From Acanthamoeba sp. SK_2022b (taxonomy: Eukaryota > Discosea > Longamoebia > Acanthamoebidae): DNA of 64,000 nt. Below the pieces are notes generated by a model that was not told the origin of the DNA, did not search any database, and saw only the letters and a program-made list of their open reading frames with translations. The stretch spans positions 27,454 through 91,453 of the forward strand of contig JANDJZ010000056.1 of NCBI GenBank assembly GCA_027943245.1. The letters are read 5' to 3'. A program made the translations under genes and the position numbers. This document shows positions 7,684 through 49,300 of this stretch, piece after piece (the stretch's first letter is position 1; the number at the start of each line of letters is the position of its first letter).

Positions 7684-9345
7684 CTACTTTGCGCGGGCGC
7701 GGGCCTGTGTGAGGGCGCAGGCGATGGGTTCCTCCATGTCTCTGTGCTTGAAGAAGCGTGCCCAGTCTATGAGCGTATCTCCATCCTTGTCCAATACGTC
7801 GCAACGGGCGCCGTACGCGACCAGCAACCAGAAGAGGTCATGGCTGCCTGCACGCCGCCATTTGTGGTGAGGCCAAGCGGGCGAGGCAAGGGGACGGCGG
7901 GAGAGTCGAGGCACCGTTTGCTACGGCGTTGTGGAGAGGAGTGACCCTCTCCCTGTCGCATGCATTGGCCGCGGCCCCGTGCTTGAGGAGATAGGCGGCG
8001 GTGTCGGCCTTTCGGGCGTAGACGGCCAAGTGCAGCGGCGTCGTGCCAAAGTGGTTCACAGCGTTGACCATCTCCTTGTCAAATTCGAGCAGGGCCTGTA
8101 CGACGTCACTGAAACGTGTGCGACGCGTGTTGAGGCGGCAAAACAGTCGAAGAAAGTGGCAAAACAGGGAGGTAGGGCAGGCGTAGGCACGTGTGGCCGT
8201 TGACGGCGGCAATGTGGATCGCTCTATTGGCATCCGAGGCCTGTTGGTCTGCCTTCACCATGACCGGGATGAGCGCTCGAACGACGTGCGCATGCCCCGC
8301 TTCGGCAGCCCTATCGTTCAGAAAGGATGTTGGCACGATGAGGCCGTGTCGAGAACGAAGCTCGCATTGCAAGCGCAGGAGGTTGGTTGGGTGTACCGCG
8401 ACAGCATTTCTCGCTGGACCTGTTCATCCGGCCACAGCTTGCGCTGGTGGAGCCCCATCTGTATGTAGGCCAAATGGCCGTGCGAGGCTAAGCGTAGAAA
8501 GAACGAAGAAAAAAAGTGAGCCACCACGCAATTAGGAGGAGGGCGCTGCGTACCGGCCCAGTACAGCCTGTTACCGATCCGTCTTCGAGAACCAGTAGCC
8601 TGCATTTGCTTGACGCTGTTGAGCATCAGCGTTCGCCAACACATCTCGCCATCATCGGCGGGCAGCAGTGGGCCGCCAAAGTGCCTCGCGTAGAGCCTTT
8701 TCCACATGACTGTCGTGCACGGTGAGTGCAAGTTCGGTTGTGTAGAGTGAGGGCCCGGCGTACGCTGATCGGCAAGGATGACATCGAGAAGCTCACAGCA
8801 GGTCGCGGCCAAAGAAAAGATCTGCAAATGGCGCCACCGCTTGTTTGTGAGGTAGGCAGGAGGGCGAAACAGCAGCCGCGGTTTTAGCGTACCTCTTCGG
8901 TCGAAAGAAACGACACAATGTGCATCAAGCACTCGAGCGGGATGAGACCGAGCGAGCTTTCAGACAGCGCAGCTTCGTGCATGCTGTTAGTCGTCTGACC
9001 CATGGGTTCCTCCTCTGCTGAACAAGCTATCGCTTCCTTCACCTTAACCATTGCTCCCCTGCATAGCGGCAGCCTCTGTTTGCGCAGAAGTGCCAGCGCC
9101 GCCTCCTCGCTCATCTCAAACGAATGAAGTAAAATTGCACAGATTATCTCAGCTCTTGTTGTCAATCGCTCGCTCAATCCGAGTCGCTGTCGAATCAGAG
9201 CGAGCGTTCCTCCCCTGTACGCAAACATTTGCTCTGGCCCCATCATCCCTCGTTTCTTCTTGGGGCAGGGCATCTGGCAGCCGATCTTCGGAGCATCCTT
9301 CGACATCATCCCTCCTTGTGCGAAGCAATGCGGATTAGTGCGCAA
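7684..9345 (-). CDS. F-box and ankyrin-repeat protein
   Basis: Spliced minus-strand gene. The first long exon (from 9345; alternative Met near 9309) encodes a basic N-terminus and helices and ends in an F-box start, LGLIPLECLMHIVSFLSTEE. The next exon supplies the rest of the F-box helices (LQIFSLAATCCELLDVILA), followed by LWKRLYARHFGGPLLPADD. The C-terminal half holds ankyrin repeats: AAEAGHAHVVRALIPVMVKA, AIHIAAVNGHT, GTTPLHLAVYARKADTAAYL, VTPLHNAVANGA and a last degenerate one before the end at ALTQARARAK. F-box proteins recruit substrates to SCF ubiquitin ligases through Skp1, with ankyrin repeats as the substrate-binding part. Dictyostelids are known to carry F-box/ankyrin proteins. The exact start and several exon borders are uncertain. 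Confidence 0.75.
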
Positions 9346-10114
9346 GTAGTGTCTGCCATACCACGCTGTTGCGGCTCCATCTTGCCTGCGTTTCTGTTTT
9401 CCCTCGCTTTCGTGTCCGGTTTTTGCTCCTTTTTTATTCTCTGTGGCGGGAAGTGGCGTGCGTAGTGGTGGGATACAGGACAGTATGCAAGACTGGTAGA
9501 CACTGGGAATTGTGCTCCATTCAGATCACTGCTCCCAGACACCACCAAGATCTGAGAAAAGCTGCACAGAATTCTGAACAAGAGGGGAATGGGGGACAAT
9601 TTGGGGGGGTCAGTAGGGGGATGTATGGTGTGCCATTTTTCCTTTTCTACGGAGGTGGATGAGAGGGTGGCCCAAGGAAGATGGCCAGTGAAGAGGGGAT
9701 ATCATGTGCTGTAGACTCTACACTGATGATGAGAAGGTCAAGAAGGTGGAGGTGTGACACCATAATTGTTGACAAAGTTAGAAATTTGCAAGTCATGGGT
9801 GTAGGTGTAGGTGGGTATTTATCATTAGCAATTCTATTGTCCTCATGGAGGAGGTGAAGTTTGTCACTCTTTGCAGGGACCACTGGGCATCCATGTAGAA
9901 TGATGCCAGCAAGATGAGCAGCATGTGAACAAGGCCACCAATTGGTTGGTTTGCAGAGAGGGCAGAGCACAGCACCTGGCAAGGAGGGGTGAGTGGGGTG
10001 TGGTGAAGGCAAGAGAGGGTGCAGGGGGATTTTCATACCTTTGAGGAGACAAGAGGGATTTGTTTGGGGGGGGGGGGCTGCCACAGCAAGGGCTGCTGCT
10101 TCTCCCTGATCAGG

Positions 10115-10212
10115 CTGACTGGGTGGGAGGGCACCTGTGCCTGACTTGGGGAGGGAGCACACTCACAGTATATATCTCAAAAGACTGACTAGGTGGGAGG
10201 GCACCTGTGCCT
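10115..10212. repeat. short direct repeat pair
   Basis: A 28-base unit at 10115-10142 recurs at 10185-10212 with one mismatch (core GGTGGGAGGGCACCTGTGCC). It lies inside the CpG-depleted block and may mark a local duplication. Confidence 0.85.
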
Positions 10213-10853
10213 TGAGCTGTTTGAGTGTCTCTTTAGAAATAAAAAAGAGAGAAAAAGGTAGAGTTGGTCCCCTCCCCTGCTTTATAGTTATAATTGGCAA
10301 GTGTGGACCAACCACACTGTTGTCAGAGAAATTTCAAATATAAGAAGACAGAATAGGGTTTTTTCTGCTAAGGAGAGGGGAAGGTGTGGGATGGCTTGGT
10401 GATCCTTCCACCGTCCCACCAAAATCATCCTGTCAGGCCAGCTGGCCAGTAGCCTGAGCTCATGCAGGATTTTTTGTAAAATTGTCTATTTTATTGACAC
10501 AAGAGGCAAAGCAAGCACATTCACAATACAGCCAGGGTCAGCTTGGTTGATGGCTTGCAGCTGGCCACATTGGTTCTTGAGGGTCTGGCGCCTTGTGGCC
10601 ACCGCCTATCCAAGTGGTCAGAAAACTCCTGGCATCCTGATGCCTACAGCGTCAGGACAACATGCCAAGTCTATTACACTGGGCATGCCAGTCTGTGCCA
10701 ACAAGAGCAGAAGAACACACTGCCCCAGCAAGACACAAAAAACCATGACCTGTATGTTTCTCTGTCTCATCACTTGCTTCTTTAAAGGGCTCTTGGGGCC
10801 TGGGGGTTTGTGGTGATGATGTTGATGGTGTTGACAATGGTGGGGAGCAGGGC

Positions 10854-11204
10854 TTGATGGAAGTTGCAGGGCAGGAGAGAGCAGTGCCAAGGTGGCTGGT
10901 GGTTAGGATGCTACTCAGCAAAAGCGCACTCAAGACCAAGCTTGCCAACTTGGAGCAGGAGATCCACCACACCAATCATGACCTGGCCAGGGTGAAGGTG
11001 GAACAGCTGGAGGAGGAGGAAGCTCAGGCAGAGGTGAGTGCAGAGGCATGTATGGCACTGGTGACCCAGTTTGAACACTTGGTCAGCACAGTGCAGATAT
11101 TCACCAGCTTCTCACACATGCAGTGGAAAGTTGTGCAGGAGGAGAAGTCCTGTGCAACCAGGCTTGCAGACCTTGAGCATGAAGCCTGGATGCCACCTAT
11201 GTGA
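10854..11204 (+). pseudogene. coiled-coil protein fragment in the CpG-depleted block
   Basis: Open frame of 116 codons with strong heptad character (KTKLANLEQEIHHTNHDLAR, VKVEQLEEEEAQAEVSAEAC). It may be one exon of a larger decayed gene. No family is recognised. A second coiled-coil fragment of similar flavour lies on the minus strand at 14013-14375. Confidence 0.35.
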
Positions 11205-11313
11205 AGGTGGGTTGAGAAACTGTTGGACAGTGTGATTGGGGCAGCGAAGAGCAATTTGGCCCAGAAGTATGGCAACCTGCTACAGCACAAGTTGGCAGTG
11301 CTTGGAGGTATGA

Positions 11314-11718
11314 TCAGAGCTTGAACAGGAAAGCTTGCACATAGGTTCTGAAGAAGGTGGGTGCAAAGGCTGTTCCTGGCATTGTGTATGTGTATGGGGT
11401 GATATTGTCAGCTTTGCATACATGGTGAAAAGTAATACATGGAAGATGTATTGGGCAGCAGCATACCGTGGTCAGAGTGGAAGACGTTTGAAGTTGTACA
11501 CTTAAACAAAGTTGGGATTGCAGAGGAGTGGTGTTCTGGCTAGAGGAAATTGGATCTAAAGCACCAATCCATTTTGCACTGTAAGTTGCATTGCTGAAAA
11601 AGAGAAGGCTATCCACAGTTTCAGGATCTTGATGATATCCTGACCAGTCGATGTTGAAAGTGTAGGACTTGTACAGGCGCCCTATAAAGATGACATATAG
11701 AGCTGGAAGTAACATCAC
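11314..11718 (-). pseudogene. unidentified fragment with a KSYTFNI motif
   Basis: Minus-strand open frame containing LPALYVIFIGRLYKSYTFNI, followed by DWSGYHQDPETVDSLLFFSN. Part of it (plus-strand 11616-11694) is repeated in the same orientation at 16021-16108, where the frame again reads KSYTFNI. The reuse of the same protein motif suggests two copies of one gene family. The family is not recognised. Confidence 0.4.
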
Positions 11719-11854
11719 ATACCTAAAGAATATATGGAGGGTTAGATGGTCACATACACATACACAATATAATGATAGGTGAAAACTTTACATAAAACAA
11801 AGCTGACAATATCACTGCACAATGATGACACACCATTTTGTTGAACTCCTCCTT

Positions 11855-12850
11855 CAGCTTGGGGCACACATTCAGTAAAGTGCCCAAGACCATTCATAGA
11901 AGCTGCCACTGGCTGTGCTGATGCGTGAGCAGAGAGATCAGCCCACCCATCTCAATGGGATTTGTCATTACCACGCCATAGGTGTCTGCACACCAGTAAT
12001 GATAAGTTTAATAGAACATAAGGATGAGGCATGGGCACATACCACGCCAATTGAAGGTGGTCAGGCCATCAGCTGGTTTAGCCTTGTTGTGTCCCAAAGG
12101 CAGGGTGTAAGGTCAGCCAATACATCACAGATCACAACATCAAGCCAATGTTGTGAGGGTAACACATTTAAGTAGTTGTCTCATCTTGTCACACAGATCA
12201 GTCACAGGCTGGCTCAAATTCCATATGAGGCAAGTAGCCTGGCATCACTGTCACTCACTCCTTTGTTAAAATGGTAAGAGATCCTAATAGGGTAACAACC
12301 AGGGGCATATGTCAGCAATATCACATAACCAGAAATTTCTGGCCAGGATATGCTGTGCAGGCAGCATCCATGCAATGGTTGCCATTGATGACCAGATACT
12401 CCGGCTTTCCATCATTGAGCATGCATTCCTCCTTGCAAAGTGGCTGCACCAAGAGCTTGTCCATGGTTAGAACGCCATTTCGTTGAAGGACTTGATCAGC
12501 ACTTGCCATCCCTGTGCTGTAACAGGATGAAGGGACCTAGCCTTGGTCATGTGCCCAATGTCAATCAGTTCTGCATTCAACTGGATGTGCTTTTCAAGGA
12601 GTTCACTGTAACGACACAGAAGATTTTCCTTTGGAATGTGACTAAGCTCCTCATCTATTGGCTGAGAGTAAAGTATTATTAGCTGTGAAATGTACCAAAA
12701 CAACTCACTAGTGACTGTGTACATGTATGTGATGGATAGGTGTACACAATAACATGAAGAGGGCTGAATCCTCAGCACTTCCCTCTTGTAAGGGTTCCTC
12801 AACCTCACTGGCACCTGAAGTCTGTGTTCAGACAATATGGTTAGCACCAT
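11855..12850 (-). pseudogene. decayed spliced gene with a ParB/sulfiredoxin-like domain
   Basis: Read on the minus strand from 12850 down. LQVPVRLRNPYKREVLRIQP is followed by a probable intron near 12750-12665 and then PIDEELSHIPKENLLCRYSE. The frame continues IDIGHMTKARSLHP and QGWQVLIKSFNE, where it shifts near 12470, then LLVQPLCKEECML, KPEYLVINGNHCMDAA and PGQKFLVM. The order R-x-L-P, a helix with an S-F-N-E element, V-x-P and V-I-x-GNH matches the ParB/Srx fold, in which a GNHR-type motif follows a strand; here Arg is replaced by Cys. Further exon-like frames continue downstream (VTDLCDKMRQLLK; DVLADLTPCLWDTTRLNQLM; TNPIEMGGLISLL, the last broken by an in-frame stop before LLNVCPKLKEEF). 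The gene is most likely dead. The family call is from motif reading only. Confidence 0.42.
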
Positions 12851-13038
12851 GTCAGTTTAATGTAGTATTGAATGTGGTGTACCTGTAACTCATCTTATGG
12901 TTGACATGGTACATCTGGCTTATACGTGGCTGGTGATCCATAAAATACATTTGGCTTATAAGTGGCCTCAACCATTGGTGTGACGCTGCCTGTGACATGC
13001 TGAGATTTTATATCCTGCAAGCTTGTATAATGGCAGTG

Positions 13039-13323
13039 TTAAACATGCCCAGGCAGAGTCTGCCGCAGCATCGCTTGTTCAAGATCAGTGGCATAATTTG
13101 CTCTACTGCATTGGGCACTGTTTGTGCTGGGGTCTTGTTGGTGGTGTCTTCTGGTTATAGCAGGGGTAAATTGATTCATTGTCATTGCTGAGCATCCCAA
13201 CTGGTCACAGAACAGCCAATGACAAAACCAATGTGGACCATGTATGCATACACAATGGAATGGCATCATCAAAATGTGAGCAAAATTGGTGGAAGAGAAG
13301 AAATGATTTAAATCAAAAACCAA
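13039..13323 (-). pseudogene. open frame of unknown origin, possible upstream exon of the ParB-like gene
   Basis: Minus-strand frame with the segment TMNQFTPAITRRHHQQDPST and ANYATDLEQAMLRQTLPGH. It lies upstream, on the same strand, of the ParB-like fragment and could be its N-terminal exon. There is no recognisable domain. Confidence 0.22.
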
Positions 13324-13490
13324 GGTACTGCATGCACATGATTACCTATCAGACGCCTGCATGGGGCTTGTGAGTGGTGTACACTTGAGAAAGCAGAGAA
13401 AAGATACTGCTGAAGCAGTGGAATGAGGATTTGCACTCTCACTTAGTGGATGGCAACATGGGACGGTCTGTGAATGGCAATGGTGCTGGG

Positions 13491-13730
13491 AAATGTTGGG
13501 AGTGAAGAAGGCCAATGATGATTAAATGTAGACTAATCCAAAACCCACAGCCAGAAGCATTTGCAAACTTGGGGTTTGTCTACATTTTGTGATGCAAATT
13601 TATAACCAGAAAAATGGCAACAAAAAGCTGGCGCAGCTGGAGCAGCTGGAGCCCAAGACCAGTGTGGCCAGCGAGAGGGCAGGAGTTGTGGTGGCCATGG
13701 TGAGACTGTGGTGTGTGAGAGAGGTTGAGG
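13491..13730 (+). repeat. inverted repeat, left arm
   Basis: This 240-base arm matches the reverse complement of 14389-14635, with an estimated 85-90 percent identity by eye. Shared landmarks are AGTGAAGAAGGCCAATGATG, AACCCACAGCCAGAAGCATT and AAAATGGCAACAAAAAGCTG. The arms flank about 660 bases that hold a coiled-coil ORF. The arm reads a protein-like segment (NQKNGNKKL, then LEPKTSVA), so a coding piece was probably duplicated in inverted orientation. Confidence 0.88.
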
Positions 13731-14012
13731 CTGCAAGGCCATGTGATGTGGCTGTGTGGGAGCACAAAAGGGCAGACATGGTGAGGCTGTGTGTGTAGGA
13801 GAGAGGAGAGTAAAGGTGAGAGCTGTGGCTGTGATGTGTGTGAGTGAGAGTGAGGCTGTGATGGTGTGTGGGAGCGTGAGAGGGTGAAGCTGAGGTGTGA
13901 GGGCAAGGGCTCCACCATCAGGTCTATGGTGTGGCAAAGTCGCTCATTCTTGAGGTAGTGGAGCAGTGTGGTGCATGTAATCTTGAGTAGGTCTGTGAGC
14001 TCCTATCTGATG

Positions 14013-14375
14013 TCATGCTCTTCTTTGACCTACACACTGTGAGCTGCAAGCTGGTAAAGAGTAAGATGGAGAAGCATGAACCTTGTCTGGCCAGTCTTGA
14101 AGCCATTGATCTTGCACTAGTGCACACTCTTTTTGTTTTGCCTCCATTTGCTCCCAAATCTCACACTTGTTCTCCACAGATGCCAAGGTGTGCAACATCT
14201 CATGCTGCTCCACCTCCTCAATGATCTTCTTCACATCTTCAATCTGCCTGCATTTCAGCTCTTTTTTTTGAGTCCAGGCCACATGGTGGCACTTAAGCTC
14301 CATTGTGGAGAGGCCTGCAGGAGGAGAAAAAACTCCTTTCTTGGGGGTGAGCATTGGATGGTCTTGCCCTCTCAT
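14013..14375 (-). pseudogene. coiled-coil ORF between inverted repeat arms
   Basis: Minus-strand open frame of 120 codons: MELKCHHVAWTQKKELKCRQ, IEDVKKIIEEVEQHEMLHTL, then NKCEIWEQMEAKQKECALVQ. It is rich in Glu, Lys and Gln with heptad spacing. It lies mostly between the two repeat arms. No family is recognised and it has no clear start. Confidence 0.35.
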
Positions 14376-14388
14376 GTGCCATCATTGT

Positions 14389-14635
14389 CTCAACCTCTCT
14401 CAAACACCACAGTCTCACCATGGCTGCAATCTCTTTCCCATGTGCCACCACAACCTCTCCCTCTTGCCAGCCACACTGGTCTTGGGCTCCAGCCGCTCCA
14501 GCTTTTTGTTGCCATTTTTCTGGTTGGTGTGCATCAATACATGCAGACAAACTCTGAGTTTGCAAATGCTTCTGGCTGTGGGTTTTAGATAGTCTACATT
14601 TAATCATCATTGGCCTTCTTCACTCCCCAATATTT
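14389..14635 (-). repeat. inverted repeat, right arm
   Basis: Reverse-complement partner of 13491-13730. Small differences include an extra stretch of about 12 bases and scattered C/T and G/A changes, as expected for copies that have decayed by transitions. Confidence 0.88.
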
Positions 14636-15609
14636 CCTTACACAATCCCAACTGTAGACACCTGTCTGTGGTAACTGTTGCTGGAGGTGTTTTGCCAGGA
14701 TATGCAAATGCCTCAATGCAACAACAAACTATGGTTAACCAATTAAAAACAGAAAAAAACGCAATGAAACAAGGTAGGAAACTCAGATGACAGCTAAACT
14801 CCAATTGGCAAAAATTCTGATTGGCTGCCCTGGGGCCTTATAAGTTGGAGTGGCTGCCAAAATCATTTCTCATAGTTGCCCAGCACCAGACAAACAACAT
14901 GGAGAAGGACAAGCTACAGAGACCCAAAAGTGCTGGATGCTGCAGCAACCCTAGTGGAAGAAGCTTTAGGTGAGGGACCTTAACAGCAAGACCCTTGGTG
15001 CTCTACAAAATATGTGCACAGTACTTACACCTTCCCTTTTTTGATATCTGACAGTTCATATCTAATTTGATGTTAACCATTTGCAGGAATTCTTTGCCAA
15101 ACAAAAAAAGCAAATGGAACAGGTATGATATTTTGATAAAATATGACATCACATACACATACACTATGGCAAAACCATCCAACCAATAGAACTGACCATT
15201 ATTTCTTCCAGGAGTCAATAGTTGAGGACTCACAACCAGTTTCAACTCCTGAAACCATAATTAGCAAGGGATTGAGGAGCACCAATGGTATTTCAGAAAA
15301 CAAGATGGCTAATTTCTGAAACAATGATACCTTGTGAATGGGGAGGTTGTCTACAGATGTTACTGCTGTGGATGACTTTGTGCAAGGGCTCAACACTTGG
15401 TACTCCAACAATATTCATTCACCCCTTTTCTTGCTTGAATGTTGGTCATTAATGACCTGGCTGAACCCTTATATCAAAAGTGTGAAGGGCACCTCATGCC
15501 CACATATCTTCTGCTTTACTCATAACCACCTCCATTATCAAATGGGAGGTCCAGTCATGTTAAAATTGATTTTGTATTCTAATTTTGGATGTATAAAATT
15601 GAGTTAAAG

Positions 15610-16089
15610 TCATATTATGCATATCGTGGTCAGAGTCCTCAGAAAGGGAGGTCTCAGGCTTGTCTTTGTTGAAGAGATCTTCCTCCTCCCTATCACAGTG
15701 CTTGTAGGAAGAATAGGAAGAAGAGGAAGATGAATGGCGCTTTTGGGACTTGCTTCCCTGAGCATCCTTCTCCCTTGATGGGGAAGGAGTCCTCTCCCTG
15801 TTCTTGCTGCTGTGCTTCTCCTGAAAGTTGTAATTGTGGGTGCTCTGGCAGTGCTTCTTGTGCTTTTCTGGTGAATGATTGGAGCTGAAAGCTTGTGCAC
15901 ATAGTTTAGACACTGAGTATACAAGTGTTGATGGGGCATACTTGGTTGAATGGCTTGAGGAAATAGAGGTGTCCAAGAGGGGCTCCACTTCTTGATGCCA
16001 CTGTTTTTCTCATAGGCCTGCAGTTTCAGGATCTTGATAATATCCTGACCAAGCTCACACTCAATGTTGAAAGTGTAGGACTTGTTCAT
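15610..16089 (-). pseudogene. Ser/Arg-rich fragment with the second KSYTFNI copy
   Basis: Two overlapping minus-strand frames. One starts MNKSYTFNIECELGQDIIKI and repeats the motif seen at 11314-11718. The other (15560-15988) is rich in Ser, Lys and Arg (KNRERTPSPSREKDAQ, then SQKRHSSSSSSYSSYK) with an acidic tail, the composition of RS-type or disordered nuclear proteins. The two frames probably join through an intron or a frameshift. Origin unknown. Confidence 0.35.
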
Positions 16090-16698
16090 GCACCCTATAA
16101 AGATGACAGGTTGTCATGGTGATGATGGAAGTGTGCAGCTGAAAACCAAGGAAGCCCATGATACTATTCCTGCTGAGCCTCTTGACCCACCTTACTGTGC
16201 TGGCCTCGCCCTGACAGGCAAGGCCACCTGTGATCTCACCACTGATAAGCCTGGTGATGGTGCCATAATAGCAGTGTCTGGTGAAAAAGGAAGTGTTTGG
16301 CTTGGCTTGGTGAAGTGCACTACAAGGGCCCAAATCTTCCTCAACTGGTTTGAGGAAGATGATGATGGGTCATTCCACCTGGTCAGCTTGTTGCCATTAC
16401 CTATGGAGTGATGATGTATGCTGATGTCTCACTTGACCTGAACAACCACATGAGACCTGCACTACAAAAGCAACTTTTGGACATGCATGAGAGTTGGCCC
16501 AAAAATTCAGAGCACAGGCCAGCAGGGTACTTGCAACAGTTGGTTCATGACAAAATCAATGGGGACCGTGTACACATGAGTGAAGGAGATGAAGAAAATG
16601 CAGAGCCATTGTGTTCTGTGTGCAAGCAGCAGCATTTGGGCAGACAGCTGTCATGTTTCTTGAAGGTGCCACTGATAGTCAATGTTGTATGTTTTTGA
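16082..16698 (+). pseudogene. unidentified plus-strand gene fragment (tandem ORFs)
   Basis: Two plus-strand frames overlap by four bases at 16408. The first reads GAIIAVSGEKGSVWLGLVKC, then AQIFLNWFEEDDDGSFHLV. The second reads VSLDLNNHMRPALQKQLLDM and ends in a Cys-containing segment (CSVCKQQHLGRQLSC). The pattern of a strand, Trp-x-Gly, then F-L-x-W-F followed by acids recalls small barrel modules such as BAH- or Tudor-like readers, but it is not enough to name one. The frame change and the missing start suggest a broken gene. Confidence 0.35.
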
Positions 16699-17344
16699 TT
16701 TGCACCATTCACCAGTGACCAGCCACCATGATGGAGCTGCTGCAGATTCTGCAATCTTAATGCTCATCACAGAGTAAGGGTGATGGGGGCTGGATGACTG
16801 ACCTTGTTGACTGCTTCTAACTACAACATCTTTACCCAAAACCACCAGTACTGTTATGACCTCCACATGTCTAAAAAACTGTGCTTCATGACACCCTACT
16901 GCCAACTCAATGCCTTGCAGTCCGAAGTGATACTTGTTGTTACTGTTGGAGAAGTGGCCACAGTATGCATTGTATCATGGGTTATGGTGGTTATATAAGT
17001 TGACATTTTTTAATATGCAATAAAAAAATCACTTGTAATCTTTGGAAAATGAGTTTGCATTTTTCACCAAAAGTATTCTAATCTTTGCAAAATGGGAGAT
17101 TTGGAGTTAAAACCTATTTTGAGGAGCTAAATCTTGAAATCAAAATCAATTTTAAAATGACAGGACCTCTCATTTGAAAATAGAGGTGGTTCTCTGTGCA
17201 CAGCAGCTGAGATTAGAGAATGGGCTGATCCCTTTGAGCTGCATGAAGCAAGCATGTTGCCTGTGGTACTGCCATCTTTGATGGACTGTCCCCACATCCC
17301 CAACTTGCTGTGCCTCAAGACAGCTCACTCACTGACTACTAAAC

Positions 17345-17575
17345 TTGTGTGTGCCTTGTGCAGAGCAGAACCAGTGCACCAACTGTAAAAACTTCAACTT
17401 CTGTGGAATTGCAGTACATCTAGACAGCAATGAAACAACAGATGACTTCTGGATTGGCAACTCATCTCAGTGCAGTGCTGACATTTGCAAGTGCACTGGT
17501 GGAGCTCCTCCAATGGTAGATGGAAAGGTTATGGAACTGAAGGAGCTATCTATAAATAAGCAAATGTTAGCTTGA
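17345..17575 (+). pseudogene. cysteine-rich ORF at the right edge of the CpG-depleted block
   Basis: Plus-strand frame of 76 codons with Cys pairs (VPCAEQNQCTNCKNFNFC and later CSADICKCTGG). The spacing could bind a metal. It ends at 17575, just before the stop codon of the oppositely read TPK gene, so the two genes nearly abut tail to tail. Low GC and CpG loss tie it to the block, not to the host gene. Confidence 0.3.
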
Positions 17576-17578
17576 GGT

Positions 17579-19312
17579 TCATTGGGACATCGATTGTATT
17601 CGACGCAACAGCTCTGGCGTAATGGCGAAGCCCGACGATGAGCCCACGACCACGGAGTCGCGCTTACACGCGGGGCACACGGCCGTCTCAGCGGCCGCAG
17701 GGCCTCCGCCTTTGTTCGCCGTCACCGCAGCTTCGACGTCGACCGGCGGCAGCGTTACCCACGATTTTATCTCGCTCGGCCAGAAGGTGGCCAGGCAGTG
17801 GAAGCAGCCGCACACGTCGCTGCGCAGTATCTCCACCCGGTGGTCGACGGCGTGCGCGCGTATGTCCTCCACGTGATCCTCGACGGCGAGCAGCTGCTGC
17901 GTGCGTCGCTCCTCCTCCTCGGGTCGGATATCGAATGTCCACAGCACCGGGTCGGACACCTCCACCTCTGCTGACTCCGCCGCCATCTCGTTTGATGTGC
18001 TAACCAGCCCGCCAAACTCCATCGACGCCAGCGCTTGAGACACGAGCAGAAGAGAGGGAGAGACGGCGGTGAGGGAGCAGGCGCAAAGGAAGAGTGGAGA
18101 GCGAGAGGTACCGAGATCCCACCGGAGGCCCTTGGTGGTGATGGACCGGCACGGGGTGCCAAGGGGCACCAGGCTGCAGAAGATGCGTCGCCTGTCCTGA
18201 GGCCGCGGCGCTATGTTGGTGTGGATGACATGGCGCCCCGGCACCAGCAGGAAGGTCTGATCCAACACAAACCGGCGCGAACCGCCACGGTGAGAGCTCT
18301 CGGCGTCGATGACAACCTCATCATAAATGACTCACAAGTGCAAGGAGAGGCGAAGGTACCAGATTGAGGTCAGAGAGGAGGAAGATGCGACGCTGGCGAT
18401 ACTTGTAGAGGATGTTCACGTTGGCCAGCTCGTGTGAGAAGTTGCCGCCGAGACCGCCCACCACGCACAAGTTGGTGAACTGATGATGTCGGAGAAACGA
18501 GCCCAACGATGAGAAAAGAGTCCCTGCAAGTGCCAGAGGCATTGGTGGTGAGGTACCGTTTGTCCTCTCTGCTGTTCGATGTCCTTGATTTGCAGGAGGC
18601 ACTTCTCCAGGTCGGTCGTGTCTTGGTCGCGGCTCTGAACGATGACCGTCCCCTGTGACGATCAACATGACGAGGAGAGGGAGAAACGCGCGGAGCAGGG
18701 CAAAATGGTGAGCCACTACCGTCAACGCGACCGCTGCACGATGAGAAGAGAGACCTTGCTGCGGTAGTACTCCATGACGGATGGTCGCAGCGAGTCCATG
18801 TCGCCAGTTATCATGTCCGGCACGAACCTGATGAAACCGTTGTGAGAGCGGAGAAGCGGTAAGGGCTGTGACAGTGTGGTGCACCTCCTCTTGTCGTAGG
18901 CAAAGATGCGATTGCCACCTCCATCAGCACACACCTTTATGCCAGCTGCACAACGCCGGTGAGCGCTCAAAAGATGGTGATTGAATTTTGATGCTCCACA
19001 AGATTGGACTGCACCTTTAGACCACAAAAACGGGAAGTAGCGGTTGTGCCTGGGGATGGCCGAGTTGGCGATGATAAGGGCTAGAGGTACATCCTCCATC
19101 TTCCGACCGGCTACCTCCTCCATCGCTTGCGTGCTGCCCGAAGCGAAGAAATCCGCACAGTTCCAAACCATCAAGTCCTCCGTTGCCGAACTAGTAGCGA
19201 TAGCTGGCTCCTTGTCCAATGAGTAGGGCTTACGTGCTAGAGTTGTCGAGTGTAGCATACGAGCGGTACGTCCTCGATGCTGTGCCCGCAAGCTCGCCCC
19301 TGCTCTGCGCAT
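17579..19312 (-). CDS. thiamine pyrophosphokinase fused to a bacterial-type zinc-binding domain
   Basis: Spliced minus-strand gene. The N-terminus is Arg-rich (MRRAGASLRAQHRGRTARML), possibly a mitochondrial presequence; a second Met (MLHSTTLARK) lies at about 19258. TPK motifs follow in order: LALIIANSAIPRHNRYFPFL, VCADGGGNRIFAYDKRR, the catalytic MITGDMDSLRPSVMEYY, DTTDLEKCL, LCVVGGLGGNFSHELANVNI, IFCSLVPLGTPCRSITTKGL and FGGLVSTSNE, closing with DPVLWTFDI. TPK converts thiamine and ATP to thiamine diphosphate and AMP. The same frame continues without a stop into DHRVEILRSDVCGCFHCLAT, FWPSEIKSWV, AVCPACKRDSVV and SGFAITPELLRRIQ, which is the pattern of a roughly 100-residue bacterial cytoplasmic protein with two Cys pairs. 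The fusion is seen directly in one exon (17579-18036). Confidence 0.82.
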
Positions 19313-45300: not shown

Positions 45301-46313
45301 ATGTGCTCGAGTGCATCTCGAAGCTGGAGACCATGCATCTGCTCGGCGCTGGTACGGAGCTACTCCCTTCGCGAGCCCCTTGAACTCGAGTCGTTATCTC
45401 ATGCGGTTTTGTATTGCGTGTGTGTGTGTAGGCCTGACCGCCGAGAATACGTTCACGGGAAACGAGGCCCCGGCGGACCAGACGCACTCGATCTCCTCTG
45501 TGGGCACCTTCACCCCGCGACGGCCCACTAACCCCAGCATGAGAGAGTCACTCACGTTCGACATCGCTCCCTACCTCATGGGCCGTTCGCCTGCCAAGGC
45601 GCAGCAGTTTGTACGCTTCCACCCAAACCATTTTCCCGTTCCTGCTGCATCACTCACGTGCGCGCGTTCCATACGACCCAACACTTGATAGAACCCGCAG
45701 CAACTGGCTTCGTTGGAGGGTGCCAATGCGGAGCTCATTTCGAAGGAGATCGAAAGCATTGCCATCGACAGGCTCTTCACCGACAGCACAAAGCTTAACA
45801 ACGTTCGCAGCCCCTCCTTTGCTGCTTTGGGACTGGAGAAGCAAGCCCCAACTCACCCCACTGTTGTTTTCCGCCTGCAGAACGCCATTGTGGACTTTGT
45901 TAAGTGCCTGTGCGCAGTCTCCCAGGAGGAGATCAGCTCCAACAACCCGCGCATGTTCTGCCTGCAGAAGCTCGTCGAGGTGGCCTACTACAACATGGGC
46001 CGCATCCGTATTGTATGGGCGCGCATCTGGGAGGTCATGGGCCAGCACTTCACCATGGTACAAGGGCTTCCTCTCCTTCTCGCGTTCTCGAATTGGACCC
46101 ACTTGCTGATTGTGTGAACCTCATTCCAGGTGGGTTGCCACAAGAACCTGAGCATTGCGATGTACGCCATCGATTCGCTTCGACAGCTGGCGATGAAGTT
46201 CTTGGCCAAGGACGAGTTGGCCAACTTCCACTTCCAGAAGGACTTCCTCAAGCCGTTTGAATCCATTATCCAGCAGCACACTTCCATACAGACCAGGGAC
46301 ATGGTGCGGGCCA

Positions 46314-46378
<65 letters not shown>

Positions 46379-49300
46379 CATTCTCTGCGGTGCCTTACCT
46401 GAGCTTTGGTGGTGGCGTCTTAGTGCATTCGTTGCCTTTCGAACATGGTGCAAGCGCAAGCCCAGAACATGAAGTCAGGCTGGAAGTCAATCTTTGCCGT
46501 GCTCTCCTTTGCTGCCACGGACACCAACGGTACCTGTGGGCTTGGCCCAATGCTCTCTCGCTAGCAATCACTCACCCCCCCAACTATGCGCGGCTGCAGA
46601 GAAAATCGTGCGTTTGGCGTTTGAATTGGTGGAGAGCATCATGAGCAAGCACTTCAAGCTCATCGCCGACAGCTTCTTCGTCGAGTGCGTCAACTGTCTC
46701 ATTGCCTTTGCCAAGGCACAGCACTTCAAGGACATCAGGTAACCCGACAGCTAACCCTGTTGCCCATGTCCGTGTCGTGTCGTATTTTATGTCCATGCTC
46801 TCGAGTGTGCGCTAACTCATTATCGTCATGGACACCCCCGCAGCCAAAAGGCGTTGGCGTCGATGGTGTTCTGCGCGGGCCAGCTGGCCGGCGGCAACGT
46901 GTGTCCGCTGAGGAAGGTCGAGGTCGACGAGGAGTCCGCCTATGCGCTCAAGAGCGGGGATGACGAGGAAGCCGAGGAGGCGCGTGATACGCACTACGTC
47001 TTCACTGATGAGGACGCCCACATCAAATACTGGTTTCCCGTTCTTACAGGCTTCTCCGAAGTCGTCTCGCATCCCCACATCGACGTCCGCACTGTGTACG
47101 CACTCCCAATTGTCACACTGGGCGCTCCCTCCCTTGCATCGGCCGCATGTGGTCTGATCTCTTCTTTTTCATGGGACAGTGCACTGGAGCGTCTGTTCGG
47201 AGTGTTGAAGGAGTACGGCACCATGTTCACGCCGAGCCTCTGGAATCTTGTTTTCAAGGGCGTCATATTGCCCATATTTATTGGCGTCCGCGTCATCGCC
47301 CACGAGAAGAGTCCCGTCAACGAGGTACCGCTCTCTCCACACACTTACCCCCGCACACCCAGTCACTCCATGCGCCTACCCGCCCGGGTGCGAGAGTCCT
47401 AGCTAACGTTTCCATCTCCTTCGGGGCCATGCTTTGGTCGTCGCCGATGTCACGCCTGTTCCCGTCGACGCAGCAGGATAACGTTTGGATCGCGACGACG
47501 TGTCTGAACGCGACTCAGTCGCTGGTGGACCTGCTCTCTCACTTCTTCAACAAAATTTCATTCTTGCTCGACGAGGTCCTGTCGCTCCTGGCCAGCTTTG
47601 TTCTTCAGGGTATGTCACGTTGCCTCCCTCGCACCGCTCATACTCTCAAATTAAAGCCCCTTTCTCTCTCTCTCTCTCTCTTGCTATTCCTTGCAGAAAC
47701 CGCCAACCTCGCCGAGATCGGCTGCACCTGCCTTTTGCTGTTGGTTATGAAGGTATGAGACCACTGCGGGCAGGCATGTGCGCTTGTGGCTCAACGTTAT
47801 GTCTTATCTTGACGTATGCGTTTCCAGAACGGCGATAAGTTCACGCCGTACATGTGGAACGTCGTGTGCATGACCTTCAAGCACGTCATGGACTGCAACA
47901 TGCCGGTGGAAGTCTTCGCCTACAAGCCGCCCAAGGGCACCGGCAAGAAGGGTTCCCCTCCCACCGCCGGTACGACCCCCACGGCTCACGTCGCTTGCCC
48001 ATTTCGTTTGCCTATTGACCATTTTCTCTCCCCTCTTCCTTGGAGCACACAGCCAAGGGCCAGGCGGAGCCAGCTTCGAGCCCAAGCAAGGAGAAGCAGG
48101 AGGACCAGCGAGCCAACACGGGAGAGATGGAGAGGCACCACTCGGGCTCCACTGAGTTCCTCCTGCAGGAGACCATCAGGCGAGGCATTCTCCCCGTCGC
48201 TGTCATTCAGGTATTGACTACCCCCTCCCAGAGGCATGCGTGGCCTAGACTCTGCTAAAGCTGGCAGTAGATTACGCTGGACCAGCGCGTTTTCTCCTTG
48301 ACTGACCGGCGTCATTCGATTTGCAGGCGATGAAGGATGAGGAGACGCTGGACAAGGCCAAGCTCAGCCCCGAGGAGATTGTGATGGTCAAGCTCAAGAG
48401 GTCGACGCCTCACCGCCCACCAAACGCGTTCTCCTCCTTCGGCACCGTCAACGCCAGGTACTACTCACATCCCCAGCGTCTACCTCACCCAAACACGTTT
48501 AAATTATATCAATTTTTTAATATGTTTTTCGTGCGTTCTCCAAGATGCTCGGTCCATCTGCTGTTGCTCCAGGCCGTCAACGAGATATTCTTCGAGCACT
48601 ACCAGCAGCTCTCGCTCGGTACCGCGGGTCCCGAGCCTTTTTCCCACGCTGCGATGATGACGGCTGATTGTGACTGGAATCCGTGCTGTGCGCGTGAACG
48701 TAACAGCAAACGTGGAGTCCTTCCTCGAGGCGATTATCTCGGGCTATCGCTTCGCCTACTCGGCCAACAACGACGTGCGACTGCGAACTGGGCTGGGACC
48801 CACCGGCGTGATGACACGCATCATAAAGATCGAAGTGACCGCCATGAGCAGCTGCCTGCGCATCCTCTTCACGCTCTACGCCGAGCCTGACGGCTCCGAG
48901 AAGAGGGAGGTCAGCGAGAAGAGACTCACCCAGTATGTTTCTCCCTCTCCTCCTCCCAGTGGTCAGTCTTTGCTAACGCACACGCACGCGCACATGCACA
49001 GGCTCATCACCGAGTTCATGGAGGAGTTTATTCAGACGGCTCTCAATTCATCGTCGCCCTACTCGCAGTCCAAGGTGGGACTCATGGTGCAGATCCTTCA
49101 GGGCATCCTCCAGTTCGACGAGTCTCAGGTACGTCGAAGCCCTCCCTCCGATCGTGGGTGTCTCCTTAGCTGCCTCGAGGCTGACCCTTGTCGTCCGCGT
49201 GTGCGCGTGTAAGTTCGCCAAGCACGTGCCGCTCCTCTACAGGCACTTTGTGGGCCTCATGCTGAGCGAGAGGAAGGAGATCCGTTCTGCCCTGCAGCCC

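Follow-up and report, generated by a model that had tools for sequence, protein, structure and literature searches.

In old repeats of vertebrates and plants, methylated CpG deaminates to TpG and CpA. For Acanthamoeba castellanii, the available text of Sarre et al. (2025, PMC12344493) describes 5-methylcytosine (5mC) as nearly exclusive to CpG and located in repeats and silent genes, with 966 hypermethylated windows amounting to 3.4% of the genome. According to the same text, methylation favours LINE and LTR copies, young ones most, DNA transposons are not enriched overall, and a DNMT3 is reported. For Acanthamoeba Neff and C3, the accessible part of Blais et al. (2025, PMC12210455) describes hypermethylated giant-virus inserts, in which mobile elements are methylated more than the viral genes. 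In the available text of a paper on Amoebidium (PMC11244446), a word search for deamination and CpG depletion came back empty. Eroded CpG in the repeats of Acanthamoeba was not described in the texts reached by a literature search, mostly main texts outside the subscription journals.

The DNA analysed here is a stretch of 64,000 bp from Acanthamoeba sp. SK_2022b (the window), corresponding to positions 27454-91453 of contig C720 in an assembly of 44.9 Mb and 1,129 contigs. The sequences themselves make an Acanthamoeba host most likely: one profilin frame agrees at 119 of 125 positions with 1f2k, profilin II from Acanthamoeba castellanii, which also indicates a strain other than the one behind that entry. 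The Acanthamoeba 18S primer JDP1 found no match, a result that either counts against the genus or reflects rDNA absent from the assembly. Coordinates are those of the window unless a contig is named. By dinucleotide count, a block at 9466-17578 has 35 CpG in 8,113 bp, an observed/expected ratio (o/e) of 0.082, compared with 4,216 CpG and a ratio of 0.936 in the remaining 55,887 bp. TpG and CpA are in excess in the block (o/e 1.59 and 1.60, compared with 1.13 and 1.15 outside), its GC content is lower (0.46 versus 0.568), and GpC is normal (1.09 versus 1.07). When the window is divided into 500-bp bins, the 16 bins starting at 9501 to 17001 have CpG o/e of 0.00-0.18, and the remaining 112 of the 128 bins have 0.64-1.21. 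Gaps free of CpG extend up to 865 bp within the block, while the longest outside is 140 bp. The lowest bin outside the block, 46001-46500 (o/e 0.64), has a TpG of 1.58 and a CpA of 1.83, possibly by chance. A two-state hidden Markov model (HMM) finds a single low-CpG run across the full window, at 9462-17590 (35 CpG, o/e 0.08), and a maximum-likelihood change point, searched for near both edges only (9350-9620 and 17450-17650), agrees with these limits. The near-total CpG loss, the TG and CA excess, the lower GC and the sharp bounds described in the first-pass annotation therefore hold up on measurement, its edges lying no more than 12 bp from those found here.

The block is a rearranged composite of transposon remains between two host genes. 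It is not the single element that had been supposed; in addition to repeats it comprises a foldback insert and a low-copy portion of 1.8 kb. To its left there are host frames at 7838-9345 on the minus strand, with ankyrin repeats (PF12796) on 7838-8233 and no Pfam match for the frame at 8884-9345. To its right, a host frame at 17579-18268, also on the minus strand, contains a thiamin pyrophosphokinase B1-binding domain (PF04265, 52 bits), and the right edge of the block coincides with the stop codon of this frame at 17579-17581. A 5-bp repeat at 9469-9473 and 17583-17587, resembling a target-site repeat, was rejected as unremarkable, chance alone being estimated to give about 0.5. Scanning the window for Rfam families and tRNAs gave no hits.

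Apart from the foldback insert, the sequence from 11310 to about 17330 is a dispersed repeat. Three genome searches were run, with the best 40 candidates scored in each. Matches were obtained at 66-98% identity, with short or gapped pieces at both extremes, and 45 other contigs carry pieces of the block. By these matches 11310-13425 and 14715-17332 are repeats of the host genome, whereas neither the foldback insert nor the 1.8 kb on the left was recognised as one. Many of the other copies have one common segment order, from which the window copy departs. Its first segments, 11310-11613 and 11616-12894, have frames on the minus strand and many genomic matches, the longer pieces at 66-89%. The middle of the repeat (12894-13425 and 14715-15280) is inverted, as seen against C575, C637, C468, C873, C1028 and others, where it is turned the other way with respect to the segments on either side, and it is interrupted by the foldback insert at 13426-14714. 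The arms of the insert (13489-13729 and 14389-14637) are 79% identical, with gaps. Other copies pass directly from 13425 to 14715, and the insert has no match elsewhere among the best 40 candidates scored. A putative DUF7869 gene remnant follows at 15282-15523 on the plus strand, with a match to PF25273 on 15338-15604 (E 1.2e-4, 22.1 bits; the curated cut-off is 26, which sister copies exceed). The core of DUF7869 is missing from the window copy, between 15367 and 15366 of the repeat order, where other copies hold roughly 0.8-1 kb, the site of an intact-frame DUF7869. The segment at 15524-16108, on the minus strand, is displaced: in other copies it adjoins 11310-11613 and 11616-12894. The beginning of this segment is matched in inverted orientation at 17104-17191. 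The next segment, 16152-16577 on the plus strand, lies downstream of DUF7869 in other copies and has 84-93% matches on many contigs. The sequence at 16580-17198 is a dispersed repeat in its own right, about 0.6 kb long; it also matches many contigs, at 79-92%, and these matches stop at the same two positions. The end of the repeat, 17192-17578 on the plus strand, has few matches elsewhere (17192-17332 on C1028 and 17192-17291 on C1096).

Within the genome DUF7869 (PF25273) is represented by 93 matched pieces, some of them parts of a shared copy and many with in-frame stops. It gives no match to solved structures up to an E of 10, and its name had no occurrence in the literature search. Its D, LDN and HxxEDxD motifs suggest, as no more than a guess, that it may be a DDE-type transposase. 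Another CpG-poor stretch, C86:25800-29394, carries a Tc1/mariner-like DDE_3 domain, so the footprint extends beyond one family. The block had been proposed to be a resident mobile or viral-derived element, and the mobile part of this proposal is upheld by the recurrence of its pieces on so many other contigs, always in CpG-poor DNA in the stretches analysed; for the viral part no relative was found in the scans described below.

The low-copy left part, 9466-11309, is as CpG-poor as the rest of the block and has short frames only. Besides itself, its matches in the genome consist of 189 bp on C421 (89%) and 50 bp on C86. No Pfam family scores above its cut-off there, and the frame at 10749-11201 has a coiled-coil-like composition. 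Two direct copies of a 31-nt sequence are present at 10112-10142 and 10182-10212, 70 bp apart. We regard it as unlikely that some of the block, for example this part, is endogenous giant-virus DNA. The near absence of relatives in the genome would fit such an origin, as would the hypermethylation of Acanthamoeba giant-virus inserts and their colonisation by mobile elements described in the available text of PMC12210455. However, no viral Pfam domain is found above its cut-off, and three limited scans of viral contigs, sensitive to close relatives only, gave no relative of either the frame at 10749-11201 or a DUF7869 copy.

The history of the CpG sites was followed by comparing the window copy with the others; the 246 alignments cover 49 stretches from 45 contigs. 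The window copy is present in every pair, and the pairs are therefore not independent. Double transitions between CA and TG number 860, compared with 51, 32, 20, 11, 8, 7 and 5 for the other seven types. One ancestral CpG lost on different strands leaves TpG in one copy and CpA in the other, so that an excess of this kind means that CpG was present in the ancestor and was eroded copy by copy. Counted as distinct window sites, 214 of 957 CpA/TpG sites have the alternate product in at least one copy, compared with 25 of 582 AC/GT control sites. CpG-decay-type changes account for 2,061 of 5,836 mismatches (35%), and the remaining divergence is 6.9%. In addition to the 860 pairs of TG with CA, there are 341 pairs of CG with TG or CA and 70 with CG in both. 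From these three counts, CpG survival since the common ancestor of the copies is estimated at about 9% per copy. A simple decay model expects about 17 both-CpG pairs where 70 are observed, so some CpGs would appear to decay more slowly, or to share ancestry. The double-transition test covers the parts that have copies, and so neither the foldback insert nor the 1.8 kb on the left. The comparisons show that family copies across the genome lost CpG independently, by C-to-T change at CpG on either strand.

These results bear on two further explanations. A defence that edits cytosine, either RIP-like or through a deaminase specific for CpG, might have altered the copies directly in the absence of lasting methylation, which would produce the same C-to-T changes, limited to repeats and with sharp edges. 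We consider this quite unlikely. The usual target of RIP is CpA, and in the block CpA is not lost and TpA is not gained (o/e 0.55, compared with 0.57 outside), which excludes the usual RIP target. It is very unlikely that the block was CpG-poor by origin, coming from a CpG-avoiding donor or virus and never methylated: all of its parts are indeed CpG-poor, even those with no relatives in the genome, but the CA/TG excess between copies demands ancestral CpG.

The footprint is not confined to the window. In 49 other stretches, selected for holding repeat copies, the HMM assigns all 55,023 of 55,023 repeat-homologous bases to the low-CpG state; over the full length of the stretches, 167,139 positions are low and 22,109 are normal. 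They contain 43 junctions between low and normal CpG, in 31 of the 49 stretches, or 45 junctions when the two in the window are included. An edge profile was made from 33 of the 45 (in 27 stretches, the window included), the other 12 being dropped for having less than 300 bp on one side. Inside the junctions, CpG o/e is 0.11 at 500-250 bp from the edge, 0.07 at 250-100 bp and 0.10 at 100-20 bp. Outside, it is 0.89 at 20-100 bp, 0.87 at 100-200 bp, 0.82 at 200-300 bp, 0.86 at 300-400 bp and 0.89 at 400-600 bp, the last two bins resting on 29 and 16 junctions. No outward gradient is thus seen at the 33 junctions, where the footprint gives out over no more than about 100 bp; every boundary is set by the HMM at a CpG. 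Insertions from which methylation spread into genes may have been removed by selection. The CpG edges were also compared with the ends of the window's repeat family, and the two do not coincide: of the 43 junctions, only 4 have an alignment end less than about 150 bp away. Most of the islands must therefore contain other DNA too, and no element termini are named here. The joining of foreign DNA in assembly, which the first-pass annotation had offered as its alternative, is extremely unlikely, as is contamination from a genome poor in CpG. Three contigs of the assembly do look bacterial, but these repeats alternate with CpG-normal DNA on many contigs, through the junctions just described.

The genome contains genes suited to CpG methylation. 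At C832:129950-134518, a PF00145 match forms a DNMT1-like exon, whose best solved relatives are DNMT1 entries. At C265:41500-47500, a BAH domain is joined to methylase pieces with a weak match to DNMT1 entries; the best matches here include 4fsx, which we take to be a plant chromomethylase. C265 and C832 are two distinct genes of DNMT1 type. The PF00145 match on C421 is DNMT2-like, and an SRA domain on C1053 has UHRF1 as its best match. No DNMT3-type enzyme was recognised among the PF00145 matches of the genome. The PF00145 matches on C152, C44 and C231 were set aside as bacterial-looking, judging by the long intronless frames and by motifs of restriction-type cytosine methylases, and from these contigs the assembly probably holds bacterial contamination or symbiont DNA.

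On the basis of these observations, we hypothesise, with a probability of roughly 85%, that the block is a graveyard consisting mostly of the remains of DUF7869-family transposons, whose CpGs would have decayed through host CpG methylation of the DNMT1/UHRF1 type. Machinery of this type would have kept the CpGs of the inserts methylated, and their 5-methylcytosine would have deaminated to T, giving TpG and CpA. The host DNA beside the inserts has kept its CpGs, and would not have been methylated for long; judging from the footprint, the mark would have spread at most about 100 bp beyond the insert edges. The suggestion in the first-pass annotation of a methylation-silenced element with unmethylated host flanks thus gains the decay signature and the enzymatic toolkit in its favour, while the methylation itself we infer from its scar. 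Weighing against the hypothesis are the DNMT3 reported for A. castellanii, which has no recognised counterpart here, and the lack of 5mC enrichment on DNA transposons overall in that species. The latter could mean that methylation has since been lost from old copies, or that the DUF7869 family is a poor target.

A more far-reaching reading is possible but doubtful. It would have 5mCpG confined to the inserts, within about 100 bp, over evolutionary time and without spreading, and destroying its own CpG substrate, with the DUF7869 repeats possibly forming an undescribed class of transposon. If methylation does destroy the substrate on which it acts, then within this reading old repeat islands would need silencing by something other than DNA methylation.

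A 2025 survey of genome-wide ratios (PMC12695648) concludes, in its available text, that across eukaryotes 5mC has no substantial influence on base composition. Here the ratio is near 0.9 for host DNA and near 0.1 for repeats, so that a local effect which is nearly total can go unseen in a genome-wide value. The locus is a record, held in sequence alone, of which DNA the lineage has treated as foreign, and of how sharply it did so. If this is true genome-wide, CpG o/e could be used to map past silencing in Acanthamoeba assemblies without methylation data.

The decay proposed here resembles that of vertebrate and plant repeats in its conversion of CpG to TpG and CpA, and differs from it in that host CpG o/e stays near 0.9 right up to the insert edge, with no gradient. 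Repeat methylation is already known in the genus, and what is added is near-total, edge-limited erosion without spreading. Like the giant-virus inserts of Neff and C3, as described in the accessible part of PMC12210455, the block is mosaic and rearranged, with mobile elements within it; unlike them, it has no recognised viral gene, and it lies between ordinary genes. It shares with A. castellanii, in the available text of PMC12344493, a pattern that falls on repeats, is restricted to CpG and leaves host genes mostly free, together with the presence of DNMT1. That account, however, concerns methylation levels and finds LINE and LTR copies favoured, whereas the footprint described here is one of CpG loss, on the DUF7869 repeat family.
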